Shown: positions 4,074 to 36,988 of the stretch, in pieces
How the letters are laid out: every line of letters begins with the position of its first letter
Position numbering within the stretch: the stretch's first letter is position 1
Assembly: GCF_900170025.1 (NCBI RefSeq)
Contig: NZ_FWEX01000006.1
Span: 1,449,089-1,513,088 of the forward strand
DNA: 64,000 nucleotides
Origin: Nitrospira sp. ND1
Lineage (GTDB): Bacteria > Nitrospirota > Nitrospiria > Nitrospirales > Nitrospiraceae
Direction: 5' to 3'
Notes under the pieces: generated by a model
Told to the model about the DNA's origin: nothing
Database searches by the model: none
Seen by the model: the letters and a program-made list of their open reading frames with translations, nothing else
Program-made: the position numbers and the translations under genes

Positions 4074-4877
4074 TTACTTGAGGCTCAATACATCCAGCAT
4101 GTCATAGAGACCGGGTGGCTGCTTCACAACCCAGCGGGCGGCACGGAGGGCTCCTCTGGCAAATGTGTCCCGGCTACTCGCACGATGAGTGAGCTCAATT
4201 CGTTCGCCCATCGTTCCAAATATCACGGTATGGTCTCCGACGATGTCTCCGGCTCGAATGGTCTGAATTCCGATTTCGCCCCTCTTCCGCTCACCGATAA
4301 GTCCTTTTCGCGCATAAACGCCGACTTGACCAAGGTCTCGATTGACTGCGCGAGCCAAGACCTCCGCCATTTTGAGTGCAGTACCACTCGGTGCATCCTT
4401 CTTCAGGCGGTGATGGGCTTCGATCACTTCAATATCGTAGTCCTCCCCGAGGGTCTTGGCCATTTCGGCGATCACCTTGTAAATCACATTAACCCCCACA
4501 CTCATATTGGGGGAAAACACGCAAGGGATCTGCTTACTCACACTTCGGAGCTCATCTAACTCTGACGATGAAAACCCGGTTGTCCCAACCACAATGCCAC
4601 GTCGGTGCTGCGCCACAATCTTCAAATGCCCAAGAGTTGCCGCAGGCGTTGTAAAATCCACCACGACCTCCCCACGCTCCATCAAACTGGAAAGATCGTC
4701 GACGATCGGCACACCTGTTCGCCCACAACCAGCCACTTCACCGGAGTCTTCCCCCACAGCATGATGCCCCTTGCCCTCCACAGCTCCTGCAAGGGTCAAG
4801 AATGCAGAATCTTTTACCAAGGACACGAGGCGAGAACCCATCCGTCCCGCAGCACCAGTAATAACAACCTTGATCAT
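4074..4877 (-). CDS. dapB: 4-hydroxy-tetrahydrodipicolinate reductase
   Basis: Predicted 267-residue cytoplasmic enzyme reducing hydroxy-tetrahydrodipicolinate to tetrahydrodipicolinate with NAD(P)H in diaminopimelate/lysine synthesis. The N-terminal nucleotide-binding motif is VVITGAAGRMG. The family signature EAHHRLKKDAPSGTA holds the catalytic His/Lys pair and the substrate-binding SGT. VVGTTGF and FSPNMSVGVN are also conserved, and the length is typical. It is the last gene of the leftward arg-lys operon, 29 bases after dapA. Confidence 0.97.
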   Translation of the reverse strand: MIKVVITGAAGRMGSRLVSLVKDSAFLTLAGAVEGKGHHAVGEDSGEVAGCGRTGVPIVDDLSSLMERGEVVVDFTTPAATLGHLKIVAQHRRGIVVGTTGFSSSELDELRSVSKQIPCVFSPNMSVGVNVIYKVIAEMAKTLGEDYDIEVIEAHHRLKKDAPSGTALKMAEVLARAVNRDLGQVGVYARKGLIGERKRGEIGIQTIRAGDIVGDHTVIFGTMGERIELTHRASSRDTFARGALRAARWVVKQPPGLYDMLDVLSLK

Positions 4878-5815: not shown

Positions 5816-7078
5816 CTAGGAAAGAAACGCCGGTATCTGCTCGCCATGCACCAGGTCGTCGTAACTCTCTCGCGCTCGAATTATATGGATCTGTCCCTCA
5901 TGAACCAGCACCTCCGGCACACGAGGTCGCGAATTATAATTCGAGGACATGACAAACCCATAGGCGCCCGCACTCATCACGGCCATGAGATCTCCGGCAT
6001 TCATTTCCGGCATCACCCGATCTTTCGCCAAAAAATCGCCGGACTCGCACACGGGCCCGACCACATCCACAGTCTGCTTCGCCGCACGCGCGACGTTTTC
6101 ATAGACCGGCCTTATATCATGATGTGCATCGTACAGGCTGGGGCGAATCAGGTCGTTCATCGCCGCATCCACGATCAGAAACCGTTTGGTTTCGCCGTCC
6201 TTCGTGTACAACACCTTCGTGAGCAACACGCCGGCATTCCCGACAATCACGCGACCAGGCTCCATGATCAGGATACACTTCAGGTCACGCACAAGCGGGA
6301 AAATCGCCGCCGCCAAATCTTTCGGTTCCGGAGGGGTTTCATCTGAATACGTAATCCCCAGGCCACCGCCGATGTTCAGATAACGAATAGGAATTCCCTG
6401 CTCGGCCAGGGTCTGCACCATCGCCAACACTTTCTTCAGCGACTCGACGAAGGGGGCCACTTGCGTCAATTGCGACCCGATATGTGCGTGCAAACCCACC
6501 ACCTCGATGTGGCTGAACGTTGCGGCTGCCTTGAACTCTTCGATGGCACGATCCGCCGCGATCCCGAATTTGCTCTTCTTCAAACCCGTGGAAATATAGG
6601 GATGCGTTTTGGGATCGATGTCCGGATTGATGCGCAACGCCACGCGCGCCTTGACGCCCATGGACGCCGCGACATCATTGATGGCCTGCAGCTCCGCAGA
6701 CGATTCCACATTGAACATGAGAATATCCGCCTTCAAGGCGTCGCGGATTTCCTCCGCTTTTTTCCCAACGCCGGCGAACACGATCTTGGCGGGAGACACC
6801 CCTGCTTTCAGCGCACGAAATAGTTCTCCGCCCGACACGATATCGACGCCACTCCCTTCCTTGGCCATCAGACGAAGCACCGCCAAATTGGAATTGGCCT
6901 TCATGGCAAAGGCGACAATGTGAGGAATGTTCTGAAAGGCACTATCGTAGACACGGAAGTGCCGGACGAGTGTGTGGTGGCTATACACGTAACAAGGGGT
7001 CCCCACCTCTTTTGCAATGCGCGAGAGCGGCACATCCTCGCAATAGAGCTCACCTTCCCGATACTGAAAGTCATTCAT
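5816..7078 (-). CDS. lysA: Diaminopimelate decarboxylase
   Basis: Predicted 420-residue PLP enzyme of alanine-racemase fold converting meso-diaminopimelate to L-lysine. The PLP Lys is in VAFAMKANSN; GLHAHIGSQ, LNIGGGLG and EPGRVIVGNAG line the cofactor site; CESGDFLAKDR near the C-terminus supplies the substrate-side Cys. The ATG at 7078 is preferred over one three codons upstream because CGAGGA lies at good spacing before it. It follows the small lipoprotein gene by 102 bases and precedes dapA, so lysine is made by the final enzymes of one operon. Confidence 0.97.
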   Translation of the reverse strand: MNDFQYREGELYCEDVPLSRIAKEVGTPCYVYSHHTLVRHFRVYDSAFQNIPHIVAFAMKANSNLAVLRLMAKEGSGVDIVSGGELFRALKAGVSPAKIVFAGVGKKAEEIRDALKADILMFNVESSAELQAINDVAASMGVKARVALRINPDIDPKTHPYISTGLKKSKFGIAADRAIEEFKAAATFSHIEVVGLHAHIGSQLTQVAPFVESLKKVLAMVQTLAEQGIPIRYLNIGGGLGITYSDETPPEPKDLAAAIFPLVRDLKCILIMEPGRVIVGNAGVLLTKVLYTKDGETKRFLIVDAAMNDLIRPSLYDAHHDIRPVYENVARAAKQTVDVVGPVCESGDFLAKDRVMPEMNAGDLMAVMSAGAYGFVMSSNYNSRPRVPEVLVHEGQIHIIRARESYDDLVHGEQIPAFLS

Positions 7079-10166: not shown

Positions 10167-11147
10167 TTACGTGCTCCGTACAGGTTTCTTTCCGAGGAGC
10201 CTGACCAGAATGGCCTTCTGCATGTGCAATCGGTTCTCGGCTTGATCGAACACCACCGACTGCGGTCCATCCAACACCTCGGCACTGATTTCCTCACCGC
10301 GATGAGCCGGCAGACAATGCATGACCAGCGCATCCGGCTTCGCGCATTTCAATAGTCGCGCATTGAGCTGATAGGGCGCCAGGATCTTGAGACGCTTGGC
10401 TTGCTCCCGCTCCTGCCCCATGCTGATCCAGACGTCGGTATACACCACATCCGCATCTTTCACGGCCACAAACGGATCGGCGCCGATTTCAATCACCGCA
10501 CCGGTCTGCCGGGCTTCCTCCCGGGCTCGATCCACAATGCCCCGATCCGGCTGATATCCGAGCGGGCAACCGACGGCGATCGTCATCCCCATCTTCGCCG
10601 CCGCCTCGATCAGAGAATTCGTCACGTTGTTGCCGTCGCCGACATACGCGATCTTGATGCCTTTCAGCCGCCGTTTCTTTTCCTGAATGGTCAACAGGTC
10701 GGACAGGGCCTGGCAGGGGTGATTCAAGTCGGTCAGCCCGTTGATGACGGGAATGCTCGCCTCGCGGGCCCATTCTTCGGCAATCGCGTGATCAAAGGTG
10801 CGCAGGACAATTGCATCCAGATACCGAGACAGGACATGCGCCGTGTCGGCGACACTCTCGCCGCGCGACAACTGGATATCGCCCATGGGCAACACCATCG
10901 CCTGCCCACCGAGCTGATTCATCCCGGCCTCGAACGACACCCGCGTCCGGGTCGAAGGCTTCTGAAACAGCAGGCCCAACATGCGGCCCTGCAGCAGAGG
11001 ATGGGACACCCCGCGACGCTGCTTCACTTTCAGTTGCGCAGCCAGGCGCAACAACCCCGTGAGCTCTGCGACGGGGATCGAGAGCAGTTCCAGAAAATCT
11101 TTCCCGAGACCGGCCCGGGAGGATGACCGATGCGGACGCCGCGACAT
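10167..11147 (-). CDS. argF: Ornithine carbamoyltransferase
   Basis: Predicted 326-residue enzyme making citrulline from ornithine and carbamoyl phosphate. The carbamoyl-phosphate site is KPSTRTRVSF; DLNHPCQALSD binds ornithine and carbamoyl phosphate; VWISMGQE and the HCLPAHRGEE loop with the catalytic Cys complete the set. The N-terminus carries an extra 15 Ser/Arg-rich residues. It lies 16 bases after argD in the same operon. Confidence 0.97.
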   Translation of the reverse strand: MSRRPHRSSSRAGLGKDFLELLSIPVAELTGLLRLAAQLKVKQRRGVSHPLLQGRMLGLLFQKPSTRTRVSFEAGMNQLGGQAMVLPMGDIQLSRGESVADTAHVLSRYLDAIVLRTFDHAIAEEWAREASIPVINGLTDLNHPCQALSDLLTIQEKKRRLKGIKIAYVGDGNNVTNSLIEAAAKMGMTIAVGCPLGYQPDRGIVDRAREEARQTGAVIEIGADPFVAVKDADVVYTDVWISMGQEREQAKRLKILAPYQLNARLLKCAKPDALVMHCLPAHRGEEISAEVLDGPQSVVFDQAENRLHMQKAILVRLLGKKPVRST

Positions 11148-11163
11148 ACGCGCCCCTACAGGA

Positions 11164-12372
11164 TTAATGGTGGCTTGATGTAGTTCGCTGACTCAACACC
11201 TGCGCAAGCGCGACCAGCAAGCGATCGATCTCGCGCTCCGTGATGATGAGTGGGGGAACGAAGCGCAGAACCCGATCGCCGGTGCAATTGATCAACAATC
11301 CGCGCGCCAGGCAATCGGCGACAACAGCTTTCCCATCGATATCCAATTCCACGCCTTGCAACAGACCAAGTCCGCGCACGTCCTTCACGCAACGATGCCG
11401 GTCCTTCAGAACAGCCAACCCTTTGGCCAACGTCTCACCCATGCGCCGTCCCTGGTCCAGAATCTTCCCTTCCAGCAGCACTCGCAATACCGCCAGCGCG
11501 GCCGCACAGGCCAGAGGATTACCGCCAAAGGTCGAGGCGTGGGTTCCAGGAGAGAAGGCCTGCGCCACAGTGTCCGTCGCTAGACAGGCCCCGATCGGGA
11601 CACCACCGCCCAGCCCCTTCGCCAGGGTCATGATGTCCGGCTGCATACCGAACTGCTCGTAGCAAAAAAGCGTGCCCGTGCGCCCCATGCCGGTTTGCAC
11701 TTCATCGAAAATCAGCAACACATCGCGCTCCCGGCAGAGGTCGCGCAAGCCCTGCATATAGCCCCGATCGGCCACATGCACTCCGCCTTCAGCCTGAATG
11801 GGCTCCAACAGGACGGCGGCGGTTTTCGATGTGATCGCGCGCTCGACTTCCGAGAGATCGTTGAACGTCACATGCGAAAACCCCGGCATGAGCGGAGCGA
11901 ATCCCTTCTGCACCTTCTCCTGACCGGTGGCGGTCAAGGTGGCCATGGTGCGCCCGTGAAAGGAGTTCGTCATCGTGACGATCTCGTAGCGGTCTGCTCC
12001 GTACTTATCGTACGAATACTTTCGGGCCAACTTGATCGCCGCTTCGTTCGCTTCCGCGCCGCTGTTACAGAAGAAGACTTTCTGCGCAAACGAATGTTCG
12101 ACCAGGGTCTGAGCAAGCCGCACCTGCGGCTCGGTATAATAAAGGTTCGATGTGTGGATCAGGTGCTGCACCTGTTTTTGAATCGCCAGCACCAGGTCCG
12201 GATGTCCATGACCGAGGAGATTGACCGCAATGCCGGCCACAAAGTCGATGTACTCCCGGCCTTCCAGGTCGTAGACCTTCGAGCCACGTCCCCGCACGAT
12301 CGAAATCGGCTGGCGCGTATAGGTGTTCATCAAGTACTGTTCGGCATTGAGACGCAACTCACCCGTCGGCAT
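11164..12372 (-). CDS. argD: Acetylornithine aminotransferase
   Basis: Predicted 402-residue class III PLP aminotransferase, here the first gene of the arginine-lysine operon. It moves an amino group from glutamate to N-acetylglutamate semialdehyde; in many bacteria the same enzyme serves succinyl-diaminopimelate synthesis, which would suit this operon. Motifs: FCNSGAEANEAAIKLAR, LLIFDEVQTGMGRTG and the PLP Lys in MTLAKGLGGG. The ATG at 12372 has GAGAGG six bases upstream; the frame extends to 12429. The diaminopimelate role is inference. Confidence 0.95.
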   Translation of the reverse strand: MPTGELRLNAEQYLMNTYTRQPISIVRGRGSKVYDLEGREYIDFVAGIAVNLLGHGHPDLVLAIQKQVQHLIHTSNLYYTEPQVRLAQTLVEHSFAQKVFFCNSGAEANEAAIKLARKYSYDKYGADRYEIVTMTNSFHGRTMATLTATGQEKVQKGFAPLMPGFSHVTFNDLSEVERAITSKTAAVLLEPIQAEGGVHVADRGYMQGLRDLCRERDVLLIFDEVQTGMGRTGTLFCYEQFGMQPDIMTLAKGLGGGVPIGACLATDTVAQAFSPGTHASTFGGNPLACAAALAVLRVLLEGKILDQGRRMGETLAKGLAVLKDRHRCVKDVRGLGLLQGVELDIDGKAVVADCLARGLLINCTGDRVLRFVPPLIITEREIDRLLVALAQVLSQRTTSSHH

Positions 12373-12544
12373 GGCACACCTCTCCCATCGTGAGTCGGCG
12401 AAGCTACCATAGGGCACAGGTGAAAGCAACCGAACGCACGCCTGTCAGCAGCTCCTGGCGCGGCCGGCGGTCTGTTTCGAACCCTGCCGCTTACGGAGGG
12501 CCGCCCTTGACGGGGAGAGACGGCGGATGGGATAAGGTGACCGT

Positions 12545-13189
12545 ATGAAATCCTGTTCACAATGCCGACAAGAAAACCGGGACGATGCCCGCTTTTGCCA
12601 CCAATGCGGCGGCGCCTTCGCCGTTGAAAGCCAGGAAACTGTGGTGGAGGCGGACTCGGCACCTTCGCCGCAGACGGATGCAGAGCTCTGGAAAGCCTTC
12701 ATCGGCCCCAATGCCGACCGCTACCTGGAGACCTTCAAGAAATTCACGGGGCCGTCCGGGCCCAAATTCGCCTTGACCTGGCACTGGCCAGCCTTCGTCT
12801 TTGAGCCCTTCCTCTGGTTTCTCTACCGGAAGATGTACGTCTACGCGCTGATCTATGCCATCGGCCCGGCGATGGCGTTCTATATCACCCAGGACCTCTC
12901 CGCCGACCTCATCTGGCGTGTCATTGCAGGCGCCAGCGCCAACTATATCTATTTCTGGCATGCCAAGGAACAGCTCGCCAAGATCAAAGGCGAACGGGCC
13001 ACGGGTGGAGAAGCCAGACAGCAGATGTTGGGAGAATTAGGCGGCGTGCAGCCGTACGTCGTGTGGGTCGGCGTCGGCCTCCTGGTCCTGAAGATCGGCC
13101 TGGTCGTCGCCATGTTCAAGGACGGACCGCCTGACGGGTCGAAGAATCCTCCCGCCAAACCCCACCCCGCCAGCGTCACGCACGTCTAG
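12545..13189 (+). CDS. Zinc-ribbon membrane protein, DUF2628-like
   Basis: A 214-residue protein. It starts with a zinc ribbon (CSQCRQENRDDARFCHQCGG), then an acidic linker and a cytoplasmic-looking segment ending FALTWHWPAFVFEPFLWFLYRKMY. This W-x-W-x-A-F-x-x-x-x-W-x-x-Y-R-K-M pattern followed by hydrophobic segments is typical of DUF2628-type membrane proteins. Two further helices follow (about residues 100-140 and 165-185). Function unknown. It is divergent from the arg operon, with 172 bases between the two starts. Confidence 0.65.
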   Translation: MKSCSQCRQENRDDARFCHQCGGAFAVESQETVVEADSAPSPQTDAELWKAFIGPNADRYLETFKKFTGPSGPKFALTWHWPAFVFEPFLWFLYRKMYVYALIYAIGPAMAFYITQDLSADLIWRVIAGASANYIYFWHAKEQLAKIKGERATGGEARQQMLGELGGVQPYVVWVGVGLLVLKIGLVVAMFKDGPPDGSKNPPAKPHPASVTHV

Positions 13190-29916: not shown

Positions 29917-29961
29917 TGGTGCGCCCGGAGGGACTTGAACCCCCAACCCTCGGATCCGAAG
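29917..29961 (-). repeat. Left attachment site (attL), tRNA 3' half copy
   Basis: 45 bases identical to 36900-36944. They correspond to the 3' half of tRNA-Arg from the anticodon loop to the encoded CCA. There is no 5' half, so this is not a working tRNA gene. Confidence 0.9.
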
Positions 29962-30026
29962 GCGCACAAAGCACTTTAGAGACAGACAGCGATCAGGGAG
30001 GACAGATAGACATGTTCTCTTTATAG
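29962..30026 (+). other. Alternative integrase C-terminal tail (attP-side coding end)
   Basis: If the element closed into a circle, the integrase frame would cross the 45-bp core and continue here for 21 codons to the TAG at 30024-30026, ending LETDSDQGGQIDMFSL. In the integrated state the tail is instead supplied by the tRNA. The same tail, with mainly silent changes, is found at 30814-30867. This is an inference from frame and conservation. Confidence 0.6.
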
Positions 30027-30084
30027 ATCAATGCTTTTTGTATCAATCAATGAAGATCAGCGACGACTGAGGCATACCTGCAAT

Positions 30085-30126
30085 CGTGACCAAAACCGGG
30101 ACCGAACCGTGACCAAAACCGGGACC
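30085..30126 (+). repeat. Candidate arm-type integrase sites, left
   Basis: Two direct copies of CGTGACCAAAACCGGGACC (30085-30103 and 30108-30126), 23 bases apart. The core CGTGACCAAAACCG recurs at 36835-36848 near the other end of the element and, decayed, at 30926-30944. Spacing and position fit integrase arm sites. Confidence 0.5.
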
Positions 30127-30161
30127 AGATTTCCTAACAAATGAGAGACGATCTGGCACAT

Positions 30162-30431
30162 TCACTCGAACAGATCAGCGTGGGAGCCAGTACGTTCCAA
30201 GTAAAGGAATTCATCATCCGTTCGATAAATCAGCAGCCAGTCTGGGGCAATATGACATTCGCGGTGATGCTTCCAATTCCCAGAAAGGGCATGATCTCTG
30301 TTTCTGACAGGCAGAACTTTTTGGAATTGTAAGAGGTCAATGATGTCCTCGAGCTCATCGATGTCCTGTCCTCGTTTTTTGGCTAACTTAAGGTCTTTGA
30401 GAAAACGGCTGGTGGGTTTGATGGTGAGCAA
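30162..30431 (-). CDS. yafQ: YafQ-type mRNA interferase toxin
   Basis: An 89-residue RelE/ParE-superfamily toxin of the YafQ branch. Typical parts: KPTSRFLKDLKLAKKRGQ at the start, LSGNWKHHRECHI in the middle and DWLLIYRTDDEFLYLERTG near the end; the His residues of HRECHI and SHADLF are the likely catalytic set. YafQ toxins cut mRNA on the ribosome. It follows its antitoxin by two bases on the minus strand. It probably helps keep the element in the chromosome. Confidence 0.9.
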   Translation of the reverse strand: MLTIKPTSRFLKDLKLAKKRGQDIDELEDIIDLLQFQKVLPVRNRDHALSGNWKHHRECHIAPDWLLIYRTDDEFLYLERTGSHADLFE

Positions 30432-30433
30432 GG

Positions 30434-30688
30434 CTAGACGCCCGTCTGGTTTCTGAGGGCGCGGAAGGTTTTAAAGGAAGGGAGTTTCTCCGGCTTGTTG
30501 GTTTCGTCAAAGGCGGCAATGGTCGTGGCATTTGGAATGGTGAGGGGGAAGGGAATACCTTGATGGAGTTCAACCTGAGCATAAAAAAGCCGTATGGCTT
30601 CTGCCTCACTAATCCCCAGGCGATCGAAGATTTTCACGGCTCTCTTTTTAAGGCCGATATCGATACGGGCATTAATACGGTCTGACAT
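30434..30688 (-). CDS. dinJ: RelB/DinJ-type antitoxin
   Basis: An 84-residue ribbon-helix-helix antitoxin: MSDRINARIDIGLKKRAVKI gives the DNA-binding strand and helix, then LGISEAEAIRLFYAQVELH and GIPFPLTIPNA follow the DinJ pattern. It neutralises the YafQ toxin and would repress its own promoter. The frame is open to an ATG at 30712, but the promoter's -10 box ends only eight bases before that codon, so the ATG at 30688, with AGGAAGG upstream, is more likely. Confidence 0.88.
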   Translation of the reverse strand: MSDRINARIDIGLKKRAVKIFDRLGISEAEAIRLFYAQVELHQGIPFPLTIPNATTIAAFDETNKPEKLPSFKTFRALRNQTGV

Positions 30689-30719
30689 GGACAGATGCGA
30701 CGCCTTCCTCATGTTTCAC

Positions 30720-30747
30720 ATTGTACGCCATTTGTCGCACAAGTCAA
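30720..30747 (-). promoter_or_regulatory. Sigma-70-type promoter of the toxin-antitoxin operon
   Basis: On the minus strand, TTGACT (30742-30747) and TACAAT (30720-30725) are 16 bases apart. The transcript would begin near 30713, just before the antitoxin gene. Confidence 0.65.
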
Positions 30748-30813
30748 TCATCTGTCAGAACAATCGCACCCTCCCCAAGAAATGAGACCATTGGCCAAGA
30801 CGACGTAAAAAGG

Positions 30814-30944
30814 GCCCTAGAGACTGATAGCGATCAGGGAAAGCAGATGGATATTTTCTCCTTATAGAACAAAGGTTTTACCTTCAACCGATAAGGATCA
30901 GTGGTGATGGGGGCATACCCGCATTCGTGACCCAAACCCGGGAC
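30814..30944 (+). pseudogene. Remnant of a second element left end, with integrase tail
   Basis: This stretch matches 29973-30103. The first 18 codons match the integrase tail: the peptide LETDSDQGKQMDIFSL ends in TAG at 30865-30867, and five of the codon changes are silent. Beyond it, GCATACC and a decayed arm site CGTGACCCAAACCCGGGAC (30926-30944) follow in the same order. The tRNA half is missing here. It looks like the left end of an older related element. Confidence 0.6.
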
Positions 30945-31055
30945 GAGATTTTCCTCGAAAACGAGACACGGTCTTGAGTCGAAACACGATACGCCTCCGC
31001 AACCCTTATCCAGCACGAACCTTGGGATTCGAGTATTCGAGTAGATAATGCTCGT

Positions 31056-31370
31056 TTACATTGCTTCAAGTGTCTCAAGAAAGGAGCCATAAAAGCCTAT
31101 CAATCCGTCAGGGCGACCAGGGAAATTCCTTGTTGCTAGACCAAATACTCCGGTCCTTTCGTCGAAGACAATCTTATAACCGGATTGATCCTCAGGCACT
31201 TCCTCCAAAATGAGCCACAACTCAATTGATCCACTCCCAGAACAATCCTCGTAAACCCCCTTTGTCGGTTTGACAAGGCATCGCCGCAAGTCTACTCCAT
31301 GTGCGTTTGAGCGAGACCAATTGCCGTCAATTTCTCGCTCAACTAATCGGGAGATTTCTGCTGCGTCCAT
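31056..31370 (-). CDS. Hypothetical protein
   Basis: A 104-residue soluble protein starting MDAAEISRLVEREIDGNW. No family recognised with confidence. The middle (VKPTKGVYEDCSGSGSIELW, then VPEDQSGYKIVFDERTGVFG) is beta-rich and acidic, a form common among small immunity-type proteins, but no toxin partner is nearby. It has a weak ribosome binding site. It sits between the decayed left end and the lipoprotein genes, so it is cargo of the element or of its predecessor. Confidence 0.6.
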   Translation of the reverse strand: MDAAEISRLVEREIDGNWSRSNAHGVDLRRCLVKPTKGVYEDCSGSGSIELWLILEEVPEDQSGYKIVFDERTGVFGLATRNFPGRPDGLIGFYGSFLETLEAM

Positions 31371-31406
31371 TTCCGATGCGTCCGTTAAATTAGCCTAAGT
31401 GGTTAT

Positions 31407-31709
31407 CTACCGCGATGTCGTCCCGCTCTGTGGATCTGGCTCTCCGACCACGGTCAGGCACTGTTGACCAAACACGGGCCCCATGCGCGTATCGATCGAG
31501 ATGCTGCGAATCTTCTTCGCGGGTGGGTCCGCATTGGCCATGGCCTGCTCCACCGTGTTCAGGCCGTACGCTAAACCAAGAAAGAACAGAACACAGTCGC
31601 GACCAATGGTCAGCGGCTGCACCGTGCGATCTTCAGGGGTAATGCGGTTGGTGATGTTTATGCATCCGGTGAAAACCACGGATATCATCACGAAGGTAAG
31701 TATGCGCAT
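31407..31709 (-). CDS. Small lipoprotein, TRL-like
   Basis: A 100-residue lipoprotein: MRILTFVMISVVFTGC gives the lipobox with Cys16. The mature part (TVQPLTIGRDCVLFFLGLAY, then GLNTVEQAMANA, KIRSISID and QCLTVVGEPD) resembles the small TRL-like lipoproteins in order of Cys-rich strand, helix and C-terminal strand. Family assignment is weak. It is on the minus strand 36 bases upstream of the 31056 gene, in a cluster of three exported proteins. Confidence 0.65.
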   Translation of the reverse strand: MRILTFVMISVVFTGCINITNRITPEDRTVQPLTIGRDCVLFFLGLAYGLNTVEQAMANADPPAKKIRSISIDTRMGPVFGQQCLTVVGEPDPQSGTTSR

Positions 31710-31846
31710 TGGGCGACTATCTCCTCACCATGAGGCTTCTCGTCCGACGCCTCGCTCTTTTAATCTCATGCATGAAAAATGTGAAGCCTTCAGCCGAGAA
31801 TAGCGTTAATTAGTGGTTCACTGATGGGCCAGAGACGCACTTACAT

Positions 31847-32545
31847 TCATAAAGTCCCAGCAAACTTCTCGACAAGTTGGTGTGCGCAACGAACTCCAAG
31901 ATCCTCACGTTCGTCTTTCACCAGCTGGCTCTGATTCGACGTCCATTCCTGCATTGAATGTTGCTGCGTATGGACATAGCACGTCGTCTGCCAAAGCAAC
32001 TTCCTCTGGTCTAGATCGATTAACCTAGCTCGTACCCTATGGAACAGAATAGTTGGAGTCGTCATGTTCCAGTCCGACCATTTCGACAATTTGTTCTCAC
32101 CATATTGGGTAAACGCCCATTGCAGTGTCTGAAAATCCAGGACTAGCCCATGATCATAGAGTCTGATTAATTCGCGCACATCGACTCCGTACTGCATTTC
32201 CCAGGGCTGAAAACGAGGAGCCGGCATCGCCTGAACATTCGTCAGGTGCATCTGCTCGCGCAGGGTAATGAGAAAGCGGTCTTTGACAGTCAACAGAGGA
32301 TCTTCTACGCGGAACAGATCATGGCGCGACACACCTCCTTCGACCGATAATAAAGTCTCAGGGGCATAATGGATGGCGACCACCTCCGGATTGGTCTTGA
32401 GCCGCTCATGTACTTGTGGCTCCAGCTCGAAGTCGAGGTCAGCTTTAATGGACCGGTAGAGTTCACCGACACACGCATTCTGTGCCCCGAGGACGCACAC
32501 CAGACAAAGAAGCTGCACCAGCTGTCTATAATGACTGGTTATCAC
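31847..32545 (-). CDS. Exported hypothetical protein
   Basis: A 232-residue protein with an N-terminal export signal (RQLVQLLCLVCVLGAQNAC) that may be a lipoprotein signal, although the lipobox is poor. The mature part has ELEPQVHERLKTNPEVVAIH and later VRARLIDLDQRKLLWQTTCY, a pattern I have seen in curli-assembly-like or trypsin-inhibitor-free lipoproteins but cannot place. Start is GTG at 32545 with GAGGAG nine bases upstream; the open frame extends into the neighbouring gene and is not coding there. It follows the 32661 gene by 115 bases. Confidence 0.6.
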   Translation of the reverse strand: MITSHYRQLVQLLCLVCVLGAQNACVGELYRSIKADLDFELEPQVHERLKTNPEVVAIHYAPETLLSVEGGVSRHDLFRVEDPLLTVKDRFLITLREQMHLTNVQAMPAPRFQPWEMQYGVDVRELIRLYDHGLVLDFQTLQWAFTQYGENKLSKWSDWNMTTPTILFHRVRARLIDLDQRKLLWQTTCYVHTQQHSMQEWTSNQSQLVKDEREDLGVRCAHQLVEKFAGTL

Positions 32546-32660
32546 GCGTTCATTCTCCTCACCCGATCGGTTTGTAACGGGGCAGCAGCGGAAGCTGTCG
32601 TTGCCAGAGAGGCAACCGATCTGACCGTATTCCCATCGATTCCCTTGGGGAGCGGATATC

Positions 32661-33308
32661 TCACCATCCCAGTCTTGGCCACATTCCCCAGATCCACTTC
32701 GATCCCTCTTCAAATTCAATCCGCGAGCCCAATACAGGCTGGCGATCCTTTTCAATGCCATCAAGCACAACAGCGAATTTCTCCTTCTGGGTGGGAGGGT
32801 CAATGTTGTAGGCGACACCTATGCACATTCTTCCTATGACATAGAACGGAACTTGTTCAACTTTCCATGCTGCCGATTCAAAGATCTCTGTGCATGGTTC
32901 GTTACGCTTTTTCTCTTCGGTAGAGAAGGGACCTGTAAACGTAGTGGGAAGCACCTCATGCCCTCGTTCGAGGATCAGAGTGACCTTGTTCGGGTCGAAT
33001 GTAATGCCTTCTGTCTGCGCATCGAAAAGTATTCCGATCCAGAAAGGGCGTCGGCTAGGTCTTTCCCATAATGGAACGAGCGGAACCACGGGTCCGACTA
33101 GACCAAAACTATGTCCATTGTGCGGTACCAGTCGAATATTCAATTCCTGTAGAGAGAGCGCAGGGTAGGGATTTTTATCACTATCCAGATCGCAACTCTC
33201 AGGAAGAACAGACACACTGGACGATCGATAGCCGACCCAGACGCAGCCCGAAGATGAAAGAATGCAACCCAATAGGAGGGGCACCAAAACTGTTCTGAAT
33301 AAAGGCAT
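32661..33308 (-). CDS. Lipoprotein, hypothetical
   Basis: A 215-residue lipoprotein with signal MPLFRTVLVPLLLGC and lipobox ILSSSGC. The mature part is beta-rich (NIRLVPHNGHSFGLVGPVV, KVTLILERGHEVLP, KFAVVLDGIEKDRQP) and ends Trp-rich. No family recognised. GGAGGGG lies five bases before the ATG at 33308. It is the first of three leftward exported-protein genes carried by the element, which may work together at the cell surface (inference). Confidence 0.65.
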   Translation of the reverse strand: MPLFRTVLVPLLLGCILSSSGCVWVGYRSSSVSVLPESCDLDSDKNPYPALSLQELNIRLVPHNGHSFGLVGPVVPLVPLWERPSRRPFWIGILFDAQTEGITFDPNKVTLILERGHEVLPTTFTGPFSTEEKKRNEPCTEIFESAAWKVEQVPFYVIGRMCIGVAYNIDPPTQKEKFAVVLDGIEKDRQPVLGSRIEFEEGSKWIWGMWPRLGW

Positions 33309-33765
33309 CGTTTCCCCTCCCATCGTCTATTCGGTTTACGGCAATCATTACTGTGCCGGCGAACCCGTCGGCTTAAGGTCAGTGCTGCCAAGTTCAGTGG
33401 CACATCGCGATTAGGCCCAGCGTGGAGCTGTACATATGTAGAAGCGGCAAACCGAAGTCAAACACCGTATACGTCCTACTTTGACCATAATAGATCAAGT
33501 GAAGCGGGGGCTGCGCCCCCGATCCCCCCGGCCGTCCGGTCCAGTGGTCCGGAACGGCCGGGCGGCCTCGTTGGGCGGAATCTTTGCGTTCCTAATCTCC
33601 CCATGGTTTCAGTATCCCTGTGCTCTTACCTGTCCTTGCAAGCAACGACCAAACAGAACGGCGGCCAAGCTGACGCATCGCCGCCTTGCACAAGGACGGA
33701 GCATCGTTCCCTCTCACCCGTGACGGATAGTGGACGGGTGACAGGGACAAATTGATTCGATGGCC
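33309..33765. other. Spacer with GC-rich hairpins, possible replication origin
   Basis: About 450 non-coding bases. GGGGGC (33506-33511) pairs with GCCCCC (33515-33520), and CGGCCGTCCGG (33529-33539) pairs with CCGGAACGGCCG (33549-33560) with one bulged base. The hairpins lie between the cargo and the rep-side operon. They could be a terminator pair or a nick-site region for the Rep-like protein. Confidence 0.4.
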
Positions 33766-34008
33766 TCACCGTCGCCCCGCAAGCCCTGCACAGTCCACAC
33801 AGAGCCAGACTTCGCACATCACGTCGTTCTCCGCATAACAGAACCGCACCCAGGCTCGTTCGACATGACAAAACTCACAGAGCCGTTCCTTGGCATGTTC
33901 AGGACAGAGCCAGGCTTTCCGCGCCCGATCGTACGTGGTCGCTTCCCGTCCGCAACAGGACGGTCCAAATAGACTCGGCAGCTTCAGATCGCATCGATGC
34001 CCGATCAT
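33766..34008 (-). CDS. Small cysteine-rich zinc-finger protein
   Basis: An 80-residue protein with at least four cysteine pairs: PSCCGRE, WLCPEHAKERLCEFCH and MCEVWLCVDC, probably two zinc sites. No signal peptide. GGAGG stands seven bases before the ATG at 34008 and the upstream Rep gene ends two bases before this start, so it is expressed with rep and xis. Small zinc-finger proteins of this type often accompany replication genes on mobile elements; its exact job is unknown. Confidence 0.65.
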   Translation of the reverse strand: MIGHRCDLKLPSLFGPSCCGREATTYDRARKAWLCPEHAKERLCEFCHVERAWVRFCYAENDVMCEVWLCVDCAGLAGRR

Positions 34009-34010
34009 CC

Positions 34011-34724
34011 TCACACCTCCTGATAGACCAGCCCCTTCCCCAGCACGAGTTGCAGAATGGTGCCGCTAAACCAAATCGGATGGCCCGAGAGCAGATCCTC
34101 CCAAGTCTTGAGAAAGACGATCCTGGGGATTTCGATCTCACCCCTGATCCGGCGATAGACATTCCGCGTAGACCATTGATTCCGCATTTCTTCCCAGAGC
34201 CGACTGATGGGAAAGCCAAGCGACCGTTTCCAGGACCAGCACATGTTCACGTAGCCACATTGATCCTGGACGTACTGGCTGATGACATAGCGGCTCAGAC
34301 GGTTCCGGGAACGGTGGCTGGGCTGATAGGCTTTGATCCAGACGACTGGAGCCCCATGGAGGGCTTGCCATTGTGACGAGAGCCATTCCTGCGAGATCCA
34401 GAACCGGCGTGCGCGTTCCCCGTCCGGCACTCGCCAGGCCCAGAAGATATGGAGCACGCCATGCCCTTCTTCCGTCCGGACCTGGTAATACTCCAAGCCT
34501 TGAAAGCCGAGCTGCCGTTCGATCCGTTGACGCAGTTGCTTGTGGTGATAGGTCAGCTTCTCGGCGTCCCCGCCTTCCGCCGTGGAGAGCGTGACCCAGA
34601 GCACTTGGAATTGGTGACATTCCCAGAACCAGAGCAGTGACCGGACCCTGTGATAACCCCGCTTCTGCTTCCTGGTCCATTCCCCGGCGACGGGTTCCCG
34701 CCTGAACTCCTTCCAGCGGCTCAT
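34011..34724 (-). CDS. Candidate HUH-type replication initiator (Rep)
   Basis: A 237-residue basic, Trp-rich protein. The order of motifs suits a rolling-circle Rep: a strand FQVLWVTLSTAE (residues 39-50), then EEGHGVLHIFWAW (86-97) where the His pair 88/92 replaces the usual HUH, then SRYVISQYVQDQ (144-155) with tyrosines 146 and 151 in the place of the nicking Tyr. The His spacing is wider than classical HUH, so the enzyme class is an inference. The ATG overlaps the xis stop (ATGA). It would let the excised circle replicate. Confidence 0.5.
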   Translation of the reverse strand: MSRWKEFRREPVAGEWTRKQKRGYHRVRSLLWFWECHQFQVLWVTLSTAEGGDAEKLTYHHKQLRQRIERQLGFQGLEYYQVRTEEGHGVLHIFWAWRVPDGERARRFWISQEWLSSQWQALHGAPVVWIKAYQPSHRSRNRLSRYVISQYVQDQCGYVNMCWSWKRSLGFPISRLWEEMRNQWSTRNVYRRIRGEIEIPRIVFLKTWEDLLSGHPIWFSGTILQLVLGKGLVYQEV

Positions 34725-34930
34725 CGCGCACCTTCCGCTTGAGGAATGGCTGGACGAAGGCCGGCAGCCAGAATCCGTTCCAGTTCTTCGATAGGAATCC
34801 GCACGGCGCGCACCGACGGCTTCACATAGGCGATCTGCCGTTTCAGGATGTATTTCCTGATTGTGCTTTCTTTGAGCCCTAACCGGTTGGCTGCTTCTCG
34901 AATGGTGATCAATTTTGTACTCGGGACCAT
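34721..34930 (-). CDS. Excisionase-like HTH protein
   Basis: A 69-residue MerR-like winged-helix protein of the HTH_17/excisionase type: KLITIREAANRLGLKESTIR is the helix-turn-helix, KYILKRQIAYVKPSVRAVRI the wing, and IPIEELERIL the closing helix. A strong ribosome binding site (AAGGAGG six bases upstream) marks the ATG at 34930. It is the first gene of the leftward xis-rep-zinc-finger operon and is likely to direct excision, to regulate the operator just upstream, or both. Confidence 0.8.
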   Translation of the reverse strand: MVPSTKLITIREAANRLGLKESTIRKYILKRQIAYVKPSVRAVRIPIEELERILAAGLRPAIPQAEGAR

Positions 34931-34964
34931 CGGGCACCTCCTTGAAAGAATGGTTGTCTAGAGA

Positions 34965-35027
34965 TCACGCTTATATATTTTTAGGCGTGACTACTCTTGA
35001 CAGCCATTAGCAGTGAGGAGGTACACT
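34965..35027. promoter_or_regulatory. Operator-promoter between the xis and integrase arms
   Basis: TCACGC (34965-34970) and GCGTGA (34985-34990) are inverted repeats around an AT-rich centre that could hold the leftward -10 box. Rightward, TTGACA (34997-35002) and TACACT (35022-35027) could drive the integrase side. One protein bound at the palindrome could switch both operons. Confidence 0.5.
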
Positions 35028-35137
35028 TGCCAAACAAATTCAGGTGGAGACGGCCCTTCCGCACGACATTTTTTTCGGTGGTGTTGGGATCAGACATATG
35101 GGGAGGGTTCGGCATGAAAAAGGAGCAGAAGGCATGA
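35027..35137 (+). CDS. Small coupled basic ORF (36 aa, TTG start)
   Basis: A 36-codon frame starting TTG with GAGGAGG five bases upstream, and ending in a TGA that overlaps the start of the CGNR gene (ATGA). The peptide opens PNKFRWRRPFRTTFFSVVLG and ends MKKEQKA. It may be a leader peptide that couples translation to the next gene or a tiny DNA-binding protein. It is too short to judge by content. Confidence 0.4.
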   Translation: MPNKFRWRRPFRTTFFSVVLGSDIWGGFGMKKEQKA

Positions 35138-35799
35138 GCGCACAGGGGAAGGCCGAGCAGGAATTCCAACAGGAGTACGAGAAAGCCATCGAACGCATCC
35201 GCACGATGCCGGACGGCGCCGTCGGATGGGTGCTCAAGTTTCTTCAGACGGAGCTAGAGGCCCTGACACCAACCGAGTGGACGCTGGTGGCATTTGAAGT
35301 CGCGGCCTTTGTCGATGAGACGGGGGACCGGTACGGCGGGATGGTGGCCCCGGAAAGTGGCTGGAGCGTGGAGGGGGTACCCCATGCGAAGAACTATCAG
35401 ACAATACCCAGTCGCAAAGAAGCCCAGGACATTCAGGCCACAGTCCTGGAGCAGTTAGAACTCTATTGGCATGAAGGATACACCGCCTTCACCTTTCCGC
35501 AGATGACACTGGTCGTAGTATCGCCGGGCAGCTTCTCCGACGAGACCGGGACAATCTTCGTGAGCGCGAAACGCAAGGCGAAGGAGTTCGAGTATCGCTT
35601 TGTGCACCTCTTGGCCCAGTCGGGGGACTACATTCGGCGCTGCCCGGAATGCGCCAAGATCTATTTAGCGATCAGACGGGACCAGGTATACTGCCACCCG
35701 CGCTGCCAGAACCGAGTCGCGGCGAGAAAGTGGCGCGAGGCCCAGAAGACCGGGGAGCGAAAGGAGAGCCTCCATGGCAAGAAAAGCGGGAAAGGATAG
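35134..35799 (+). CDS. CGNR-type zinc-finger protein
   Basis: A 221-residue protein. Residues 1-165 are of unknown fold. The C-terminus has a zinc finger with Cys170, 173, 187 and 191 (RRCPECAKIYLAIRRDQVYC, then HPRCQNRVAARKWRE), the CGNR pattern with Gln for Gly. CGNR proteins are presumed DNA-binding regulators and often sit beside integrases on mobile elements. AAGGAG lies eight bases before the ATG at 35134; the gene overlaps the integrase start by 26 bases. Confidence 0.8.
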   Translation: MSAQGKAEQEFQQEYEKAIERIRTMPDGAVGWVLKFLQTELEALTPTEWTLVAFEVAAFVDETGDRYGGMVAPESGWSVEGVPHAKNYQTIPSRKEAQDIQATVLEQLELYWHEGYTAFTFPQMTLVVVSPGSFSDETGTIFVSAKRKAKEFEYRFVHLLAQSGDYIRRCPECAKIYLAIRRDQVYCHPRCQNRVAARKWREAQKTGERKESLHGKKSGKG

Positions 35800-36988
35800 A
35801 GGCATCACCCAGCGGAAGGGCCGCGAAGGGTGGTGGGTCCGCCTCTACGAACATGGACGGCAGCGCTGGTTTCGTTGTGACACGAAATCTCAGGCCAAAG
35901 CCTTGTATGGCCGACTGAAGGCCGACATTCGAGAAGGAACCTTTTTCCCGGAAAAGTTTGCACCCCGGAAGGACATCACGCTTCGAGCCTGGATCAACCG
36001 CTACCTCGAAGGGTCTGTCAACCGCAACAAGGCTGGCGAAGTACTCTATGGACGGCGCTGGTCCCTTCTTATTGGGAGTCGCCTAGTCACCCAGATTACG
36101 GTAGACGATCTCCGGCGGATTCAAGCCAAAATGCGCGCCAAGATGAAGATGAATACGAAGGAACCGCAACGACTGTGGGCGGATGCCACGATTAACCGAC
36201 ATTTTGCCTTCCTTCGGCATGTGCTCATGTTAGCCGTCAAAGATGACAAGTTGACCAAGAACCCGGTGTCCAGTCTCAAGTTCTTCCCGGAAGCAAACCG
36301 GACGCGCTTCCTGACGAGTGAAGAACTGGACCGGTTGAGGGGCGTGATGAGCCCGGACGATTGGAAATTGGTGGCCTTTGCCGTCGAGACTGGGTTGAGG
36401 CGAGGAGAACAGTTCTCGCTGCGATGGAACCAGGTCGATCTGGAGAACGAGGTCCTGACCCTGCCTATGCCGAAGGGAGGCAAAACCCGGCATGTGCCTT
36501 TGAGCGAAGGAGCCAAGACCATCCTGAGGTCATTTGACACGTTTCTTCGGTCGGCCTGGGTGTTCCCAGGTTTAAAGGACGTGACTCACCCTATGGACAG
36601 CAGGGCCTTCCTCCGGCGTGCCTTTGAGCCTGGCTTGCGCCGAGCGGGGATCACCGGGGCGTGCTGGCACTCACTCCGGCATACCGCAGCCAGCCGCCGT
36701 GTCATGGCAGGGGTCGATCTCGTGTCGGTGAAGGAGATTCTCGGACACCGCGATATTGAAACGACCCTCCGGTATGCCCACCTTGCTCCAGGACATCTTC
36801 GGGACGCCGTGAATCGAGGGAGTCTGGCTGGAACCGTGACCAAAACCGTGACCAAACCGGAGGGGGAAGAACGAGAAACGATGCAACCTGTTGATTATCT
36901 GGTGCGCCCGGAGGGACTTGAACCCCCAACCCTCGGATCCGAAGTCCGATGCTCTATCCAATTGAGCTACGGGCGCGCGCCGGTATAA
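35774..36988 (+). CDS. Tyrosine integrase whose 3' end overlaps the tRNA
   Basis: A 404-residue phage-type integrase. The N-terminus holds an arm-binding and core-binding region (KGREGWWVRLYEHGRQRW; TLRAWINRYLEG). The catalytic set is Arg210 (ETGLRRGEQ), His299-x-x-Arg302 (WHSLRHTAASR), His325 (LGHRDIETT) and the Tyr334 nucleophile (LRYAHLA). From residue 376 on, the protein is read antisense through tRNA-Arg (YLVRPEGLEPPTLGSE and beyond), so integration decides the tail. AAGGAG precedes the ATG. Confidence 0.95.
   Translation: MARKAGKDRGITQRKGREGWWVRLYEHGRQRWFRCDTKSQAKALYGRLKADIREGTFFPEKFAPRKDITLRAWINRYLEGSVNRNKAGEVLYGRRWSLLIGSRLVTQITVDDLRRIQAKMRAKMKMNTKEPQRLWADATINRHFAFLRHVLMLAVKDDKLTKNPVSSLKFFPEANRTRFLTSEELDRLRGVMSPDDWKLVAFAVETGLRRGEQFSLRWNQVDLENEVLTLPMPKGGKTRHVPLSEGAKTILRSFDTFLRSAWVFPGLKDVTHPMDSRAFLRRAFEPGLRRAGITGACWHSLRHTAASRRVMAGVDLVSVKEILGHRDIETTLRYAHLAPGHLRDAVNRGSLAGTVTKTVTKPEGEERETMQPVDYLVRPEGLEPPTLGSEVRCSIQLSYGRAPV
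36835..36860 (+). repeat. Candidate arm-type integrase sites, right
   Basis: Two overlapping direct copies of CGTGACCAAA(A)CCG at 36835-36848 and 36847-36860, 12 bases apart, within the integrase coding end (VTKTVTKP). They match the left arm repeats at 30085-30126 in sequence and orientation. Confidence 0.45.
36900..36944 (-). repeat. Right attachment site (attR) inside tRNA-Arg
   Basis: The 45-base copy that is identical to 29917-29961 and lies within the intact tRNA, from the CCA end to the anticodon loop. Confidence 0.9.
36900..36976 (-). tRNA. tRNA-Arg (anticodon UCG)
   Basis: A 77-base cloverleaf. Acceptor arm GCGCCCG pairs with CGGGCGC; D arm is GCTC/GAGC; the anticodon stem TCGGA/TCCGA encloses loop CTTCGGA, giving anticodon UCG; the T arm is GGGGG/CCCTC around TTCAAGT; CCA is encoded. 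It is the insertion site of the element. Confidence 0.95.

Follow-up and report, generated by a model that had tools for sequence, protein, structure and literature searches.

A tRNA-targeting integrative element of Nitrospira with an invariant candidate rolling-circle origin

The DNA analyzed here, a stretch of 64,000 nucleotides from the genome of Nitrospira sp. ND1 (the window), carries an element of about 7.0 kb that is inserted in a tRNA gene. The host is a nitrite-oxidizing bacterium, and the genus Nitrospira contains important nitrite oxidizers. An original prediction, made from the letters of the window, had read the element as one of a possible family of small, replicating integrative elements, which raises the question of what kind of mobile DNA it is. 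It is a site-specific integrative element with a tyrosine recombinase and a tRNA target, as the integrase, the att repeats and the empty sites of relatives show. Its most conserved parts suggest that it probably works like an integrative rolling-circle plasmid.

Exact 45-bp direct repeats lie at 29917-29961 (attL) and 36900-36944 (attR). ARAGORN made a single tRNA call in the window, an intact tRNA-Arg(TCG) at 36900-36976 on the minus strand, and these boundaries enclose a complete core of two divergent gene groups, zf-rep-xis and CGNR-int. The overlaps between xis and rep (4 bp), rep and zf (4 bp), and CGNR and int (26 bp) suggest two coupled operons. The repeats, the intact tRNA, the complete integrase and the divergent gene groups of the original prediction were all confirmed, and none of the window proteins scanned against Pfam and PHROG matched a capsid, portal or conjugation family, as had also been claimed. 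The core had been placed at 33.8 to 37.0 kb. The gene set there was borne out, but the conserved core begins near 33474 with a noncoding, origin-like block that had been overlooked and is the most conserved part of the element. The features are as follows, with the strand where there is one.

29917-29961: attL core, 45 bp, identical to attR; present as a single copy at the empty sites of six relatives
29961-30026, plus: 3' tail of int as it would read in the circular form, 21 codons and a stop; frame open in nine of nine distinct attL sequences, with a third-position excess
30078-30132: left arm-type direct repeats (TGACCAAAACC), putative integrase arm sites
30162-30431, minus: YafQ-type toxin, cargo (Pfam YafQ_toxin, 1.1e-35)
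30434-30712, minus: RelB antitoxin, cargo (Pfam RelB, 3.6e-12)
30799-30946: diverged second copy of the element's left end, 73% identical (repeat D1), probably the remnant of another element
31056-33323, minus: variable cargo open reading frames (ORFs) at 31056-31370, 31407-31709, 31847-32818 and 32661-33323; three were scanned singly with no match above cut-off, and 31847-32818 was scanned only inside a pooled protein set
33474-33577, minus: candidate double-strand origin, with hairpin GGGGGCGCAGCCCCC, then CTTCACTTG^ATCTAT on the minus strand and a second GC hairpin
33660-33685: hairpin 2, GGCGGCCAAGCTGACGCATCGCCGCC, with one varying pair (33661-33684)
33708-33747: inverted repeat 3, candidate single-strand origin, operator or terminator
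33766-34014, minus: zf, small zinc-finger-like protein of 82 amino acids (aa); best Pfam match only zf-B_box, E 0.88
34011-34724, minus: Rep, candidate rolling-circle initiator, 237 aa
34721-34930, minus: xis, excisionase-like HTH_17 protein, 69 aa (Pfam 5e-9; TIGR01764 5.3e-9)
34931-35133: region of the divergent promoters; its operator-like inverted repeat differs between the CGNR types
35134-35799, plus: CGNR-like zinc-finger protein, 221 aa (zf-CGNR E 0.0093, below cut-off)
35774-36988, plus: tyrosine integrase, 404 aa integrated and 411 aa across the joined junction (Pfam 2.2e-26, PHROG 1.4e-63)
36828-36859: right arm-type repeats, within the 3' end of int
36900-36976, minus: tRNA-Arg(tcg), whose 3' part is attR (36900-36944)

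The core DNA occurs at five places in the window's own genome, with five full copies of Rep that are 97 to 100% identical. Rep matches were found in 27 of 148 genomes, with up to six per genome; 24 came from the 29 genomes of the genus (three of these, G008, G015 and G023, holding fragments only), and the remaining three belonged to further genera within the family. A sample of the phylum gave matches in 20 of 395 genomes, one of them at E 9e-4. A contig-collection search gave 35 rep loci, 29 in records titled Nitrospira; loci in metagenome-assembled contigs titled Nitrosomonas, Nitrosospira or Verrucomicrobiales are taken to be mis-binned. The Rep family appears to be rare outside the genus.

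Forty-five loci were read: the window, the four other copies of its genome and 40 fetched places. At 33 of them the five genes zf-rep-xis and CGNR-int are recognizable in the same order, not every copy being intact. The remaining 12 comprise nine with zf-rep next to another module, one interrupted by an insertion sequence (IS) (L011), one cut by a contig end (L067) and one degraded (L087). A family with the same gene set at tRNA genes, distinct from parts of ordinary prophages, had been proposed, and the search of other genomes found just that, a shared order at several targets in many species. Integrase types follow the target at the 33 loci: six at tRNA-Arg(tcg), eight at tRNA-Arg(tct), nine at tRNA-Cys, four at tRNA-Gln, five at the 3' end of a protein gene (judged by eye) and one elsewhere. 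Terminal direct repeats delimit 29 elements with sizes of 4,941 to 9,941 bp; L010, L048, L056 and L064 were left undelimited.

The tRNA-Arg(tcg)/aroK site was compared at 26 loci from 26 genomes. Eleven hold a full-length integrase, six hold int remnants, three are cut by contig ends, and six are empty, with a single core about 0.3 kb from the flanking lipoprotein gene. The window int is 96.6% identical to that of genome G006, against 81.7% for aroK and 80.9% for aroE (81 to 84% for aroK, aroE and pal), and the toxin-antitoxin genes are 98.4% identical to those of G001, against 80 to 84% for the aroK, aroE and pal flanks. The G006 and G001 comparisons show that some copies have been transferred between species. 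The signal is not seen everywhere: toxin-antitoxin pieces in G022 show lower identity than their flanks. Identical rep genes also occur in tRNA-Cys elements of different genomes; they are not clean evidence of transfer, because the near-identity, where seen, runs past the element. The empty sites, the cross-species transfer and the 29 delimited elements together show that the family is mobile. Extra att and origin copies lie beside some tRNA-Cys elements (L012 at 2362-2403 and 4725-4773; L063 with origins at 6332 and 8554), which suggests tandem integration.

The reading frame of int bears on whether the element forms a circle. In five integrated tRNA-Arg(tcg) elements that were read, int ends in or just beyond the tRNA at 404 or 409 aa. 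When the ends are joined at the core, the frame runs on into the left-end DNA, and Int is then 411 aa long in each of the five. This frame stays open for 21 residues in every one of the nine distinct attL sequences found, one of them from a scarred site, and the tails are similar, with FSL as their last residues. Third codon positions hold 15 of the 30 variable columns (p about 0.01 by permutation, with relatedness ignored). Synonymous changes make up 143 of 314 codon differences in the int frame, compared to 38 of 290 and 50 of 293 when the other frames are read. Formation of a circle is supported because the frame is open, with codon-like variation, over the joined junction; this would be hard to explain otherwise than by a circle that exists and from which int is expressed.

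The origin-like block at 33474-33577, to the left of zf, was matched in 25 of the 29 genus genomes. Its commonest form on the minus strand is the hairpin GGGGGCGCAGCCCCC followed by GCTTCACTTGATCTATATGGTCAAAGTAG; the window form is one T longer. ACTTGAT follows the hairpin in 45 of 45 hairpin copies, which come from 44 of the 45 loci and include elements with a serine recombinase; the search required GAAG and the exact hairpin, so altered copies would escape it. Divergence between elements sets in at once after this conserved sequence. The hairpin with ACTTGAT is a candidate rolling-circle origin, with a predicted nick on the minus strand between 33496 and 33495. Two further inverted repeats lie beyond it, with most pairs invariant and three clearly varying on both sides. 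Among 35 sequences (38 before three identical rows were merged), the pair 33661-33684 of hairpin 2 is GC in 20, AT in 10, GT in three and broken in two. In inverted repeat 3, the pair 33720-33735 is GC in 21, CG in 11 and broken in three, and the pair 33708-33747 is broken in eight.

Two kinds of isolated sequence were considered beside these copies and set aside. Origin-only copies were dropped as mini-elements replicated in trans, since each one inspected proved to be a scar, had lost rep or lay beside an assembly gap. The contigs of L088 and L098 (6,804 and 6,597 bp) begin and end at the att cores of two elements without terminal overlap; tandem copies or assembly breaks fit them equally well, and they were not used as evidence of circles. 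In genome G009 (L176 and L177, near 5200 and 5700), runs of N start at the origin hairpin, as if the GC-rich hairpin had blocked assembly.

The rep gene shows a ratio of nonsynonymous to synonymous substitution (dN/dS) of only 0.020 in 20 loci (mean dS 0.71), compared to 0.077 for xis (12 loci), 0.113 for zf (10 loci) and 0.105 for type-1 CGNR (eight loci). Rep and the origin are under extreme constraint. Rep is 26% identical over 157 aa (E 7e-6) to the Rep of the Thermotoga plasmids pRKU1/pRQ7, and a profile-profile comparison with four pRKU1-type Reps, made with shallow profiles, gave a probability of 89.5 and an E of 2e-6 over residues 17-164. Motif 1 (VLWVTLST) aligns with the pRKU1-type Reps, as does the catalytic tyrosine region; Y146 and Y151 are invariant in 17 sequences and lie near the Tyr motif in an alignment with an indel. 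GVLHIFWAW is present in 34 of 34 Rep copies, and H88, upstream of its H-I-F, is likewise invariant. The relatives found by sequence are plasmid-borne, some of them annotated as Rep, and studies of pRQ7, according to PMC3398313, suggest that this plasmid replicates by a rolling circle. No Pfam or NCBIfam model matched Rep at an E of 1, PHROG gave only E 0.21, and the sequences of solved structures gave no significant match. The HUH Rep of the original prediction fared accordingly: distant kinship to the Thermotoga miniplasmid Reps was found, but the motif reads H-I-F. The protein is related to rolling-circle Reps, has a noncanonical motif and may work like one; it is not a canonical HUH member.

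The recombinase module next to this replicon is not fixed. Mapped on the rep tree, integrase type takes 14 changes, where 5 is the minimum, and host genome takes 26. The tree is weakly resolved (five starred inner branches out of 27), and shuffling gives less clustering by integrase type than is observed. The starred branches nevertheless require two or more changes for every one of the five integrase types that has more than one member, so the modules reassort, and module exchange within the family is shown. The nine loci with another module have a large serine recombinase, together with a peptidase of the M78/IrrE type, beside a Rep of 82 to 87% identity, a diverged zf and the same origin (families and helix-turn-helix [HTH] neighbors were displayed for L082). 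The recombinase match ends 37 to 38 nucleotides inside tRNA-Asn at the eight serine-type loci where that gene was found; a 12-bp candidate left core is present in two of eight.

Arm sites and regulation vary as well. The motif TGACCA[AG]A[AC] occurs near the left end in 14 of 29 elements and near the right end in 15 of 29, compared to 0.9% of random inner stretches, and 13 of the 15 elements without it at both ends have a different internal repeat of 25 to 26 bp. The operator-like inverted repeat has a CACG or a TATG form, each matching one of two types of CGNR-like protein that are about 55% identical to each other. The zinc finger had been called as CGNR; the resemblance was recovered at 16.2 bits, below the Pfam gathering score of 24. 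The protein is presumably a regulator of the divergent promoters.

We consider it probable, on these patterns of conservation, that the element works like an integrative rolling-circle plasmid. In this model, excision by Xis and Int at the 45-bp core would yield a circle of 6,983 bp, the spacing of the repeats. Rep would nick the minus strand at CTTG^AT, next to the invariant hairpin, and the circle would be copied by rolling-circle replication. Int, its C terminus recoded by the joined junction, would then insert the circle into the 3' end of a tRNA. The origin, zf and rep form a constant core. The cargo is interchangeable, and so is the recombinase module, which is either one of the tyrosine types that serve several sites or a large serine recombinase. 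The predicted ability to replicate thus stands as a reasoned proposal from Rep kinship, the invariant origin-like site and the int frame over the joined junction.

Several observations weigh against this proposal. H92-I93-F94 is invariant in 17 sequences, so that the second histidine of the HUH motif is a phenylalanine and the canonical motif is absent, and the lysines of the YxxKYxxK-like motif are missing; canonical HUH chemistry is not assured because of these two features. The AlphaFold model of Rep is poor (pLDDT, the model's confidence score, 58), and its structure matches are generic ferredoxin folds, among them SIRV1 ORF119 (2x3g; Z 5.8, root mean square deviation 4.3, 108 residues aligned). 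CTTG^AT, which we take to be the nick site of pC194/phiX174-type initiators, counts as uncertain support. Over the junction, int tails resemble one another less in the tRNA-Arg(tct) type, and the third-position excess could in part be chance or a DNA-binding constraint on the left end. Some copies are damaged: L051 has a split CGNR frame, L074 has a stop codon in rep, and L011, a copy in the window's own genome with the same core, carries an IS21-type insertion at the start of int (10774-12932; IstB_IS21, 1.5e-84, and an rve transposase). The int of G020, at 86.0%, is no closer than aroK (86.0%) and aroE (89.3%). No free plasmid form was found in PLSDB, where the rep matches were two Thermotoga plasmids only, and rep had no match in the phage set.

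An alternative that we hold unlikely, yet worth stating fully, is that the elements are satellites of integrated filamentous phages, with ssDNA from rolling-circle replication packaged by Zot-type machinery. The setting is suggestive. Zot is present in 16 of the 29 genus genomes in up to four copies, and tailed-phage markers are scarce there (portal PF04860 in two of 29, terminase PF03237 in one of 29). The Zot gene of L013, the only locus inspected by families, has Rep_trans, RadC, HTH_17 and a phage integrase as neighbors, a gene set that fits a filamentous prophage. The copy numbers of Rep, entered by hand from the Rep search, and of Zot are correlated (rho 0.56, p 0.0016, uncorrected for phylogeny or assembly quality), and the element sizes of 4.9 to 9.9 kb resemble the 5.5 to 10.6 kb given for Inoviridae genomes in the part of PMC8491893 consulted. 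Presence and absence are not significantly associated, however (rep in 14 of 16 Zot-positive and seven of 13 Zot-negative genomes, p 0.09), and in the seven Zot-negative genomes rep is full-length or nearly so. The Zot model also matches five of 14 control genomes and alone is no proof of a filamentous phage. BLAST, motif and conserved-word searches found no conserved 10- to 13-base word common to the elements and the filamentous prophages; eight 9-base words are shared compared to 1.8 expected, one of them resembling a ribosome-binding site. IMG/VR gave one related locus by rep query and no match to the origin pattern. The idea in the original prediction that the elements hitchhike on other mobile DNA is thus left with circumstantial backing, in that the three marker families searched for conjugation and tailed phages are nearly absent from the genus and Zot is common, but no shared signal was found. 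If the satellite explanation were true, a noncanonical H-x-F initiator would make ssDNA circles that leave the cell in Zot-type particles, and antiphage defense would be spread among nitrite oxidizers in whose genomes the markers searched reveal next to no tailed prophages or genes for conjugation.

The Zot prophages themselves form a parallel multicopy family in the genus (L013 and L190-L201), about 79 to 91% identical to L013 in pieces of more than 700 bp, and lie near tRNA-Phe/Ser, Lys, Glu, Ala and Arg genes. They resemble the elements in being multicopy and near tRNAs, with integrases 27 to 33% identical to those of the elements, but differ in Rep family and Zot module and share no conserved DNA with them.

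It is also doubtful, and somewhat more so, that Rep acts mainly as a relaxase, the conserved block being an origin of transfer (oriT) and the element an integrative mobilizable element (IME) that uses the conjugative machinery of others. HUH-type initiators, as we understand it, can act as relaxases, the window proteins scanned matched no transfer family, and some copies have crossed between species. But the VirB4-type family PF03135, the one such marker searched, is present in only one of the 29 genus genomes, and the relatives of Rep are plasmid-borne. A lower standing still goes to one-ended rolling-circle transposition of the IS91/ISCR kind, in which Rep and the origin would capture cargo and the origin would double as a recombination boundary. 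The flanks do diverge right after ...GTCAAAGTAG, but a conserved origin beside freely replaced cargo gives the same picture, and tRNA-Cys elements such as L012 have cargo on the other side of the origin too, making this improbable. That the element is just an ordinary genomic island, or the remnant of a prophage, whose replication gene is dead is very improbable. Degraded copies and scars do exist (L087, six int-remnant sites, rep-less origin copies), but rep is strongly constrained, 33 of 34 aligned rep genes lack an inner stop, and some copies have been transferred between species.

Among known systems, an integrative rolling-circle plasmid of this kind would work most like pSAM2-type AICEs (actinomycete integrative and conjugative elements), apart from having no visible genes for conjugation. 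According to PMC3218068, AICEs have a rolling-circle Rep, use a recombinase of the serine or the tyrosine class and exchange modules, and in one of their families int diverges more than any other gene. AICEs with RepSA, such as pSAM2, share Int/Xis, either recombinase class, module exchange and, as a candidate here, a rolling-circle Rep with our element. It is not placed among them because its Rep has no Pfam RepSA match (none at E <= 1). The host phylum is also different, and FtsK/SpoIIIE-type Tra is found neither among the window proteins scanned nor among the best 25 of 60 and 25 of 63 cargo families. The Thermotoga plasmids pRKU1/pRQ7 have a distantly related Rep, and TTCACTTGAT is common to both, a 10-mer that alone could be chance; they are 846 bp, carry Rep only, do not integrate and have an H-M-H motif. 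IMEs and phage satellites (PICI, P4-like, tycheposons, RS1 and pDolos) are likewise small and may carry defense genes, according to the portion of PMC11389934 consulted, but no helper, oriT, packaging or capsid gene was identified for the Nitrospira element. In the open-license PMC literature, by title and start of abstract among the matches listed, we found no account of such elements in Nitrospira, and the part of the report on ocean Charybdis elements that was consulted (PMC12324425) gives no link to them.

The cargo of the window element extends from attL to about 33.47 kb and holds the YafQ/RelB pair and ORFs without assigned function. The 148-bp left end is duplicated (29958-30105 and 30799-30946, 73% identical) on either side of the YafQ/RelB genes, a pattern that the collapse of a second element at this place could give. 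Across the family, 134 ORFs of at least 85 aa came from the 29 elements; 108 ORFs from 25 elements were pooled, leaving aside L059-L061, L063, three ORFs of L052, the window ORF 31483-31803, and the YafQ/RelB pairs of L050 and L069 as near-duplicates. PADLOC gave a counted match at E <=1e-8 in 11 of 25 nonredundant elements, with 30 proteins scanned singly, a lower bound given that more PDC families matched in the pooled scan. The matches are to Upx, PDC-S06, SIR2, AriA/OLD-like, PDC-S46, RelA/SpoT-like (PDC-S33), RT_UG14, PifA/KAP, type IIG restriction-modification, PDC-S02 and AbiLi-like models, where PDC models denote defense candidates and not proven defense. A PDC-M43B match in L012 (1.3e-10) was not counted, as Pfam reads the protein as a histidine kinase, nor was a match in L073 (3.9e-6), which is too weak; the window YafQ had no PADLOC match. 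Some elements carry chlorite dismutase, fructose bisphosphatase (FBPase), a Na/H exchanger or a sulfite exporter. On these matches, the cargo often looks like antivirus defense.

An initiator that is strongly constrained and has an invariant H-x-F would test what HUH chemistry needs. The constant origin-rep core with exchangeable tyrosine or serine recombinases is a clean natural case of replicon-centered modularity, and the conserved origin offers a testable nicking substrate that might seed a vector for the genus. With its multiple copies, cross-species transfer and frequent defense-like cargo, the family looks like a major small mobile element of Nitrospira.

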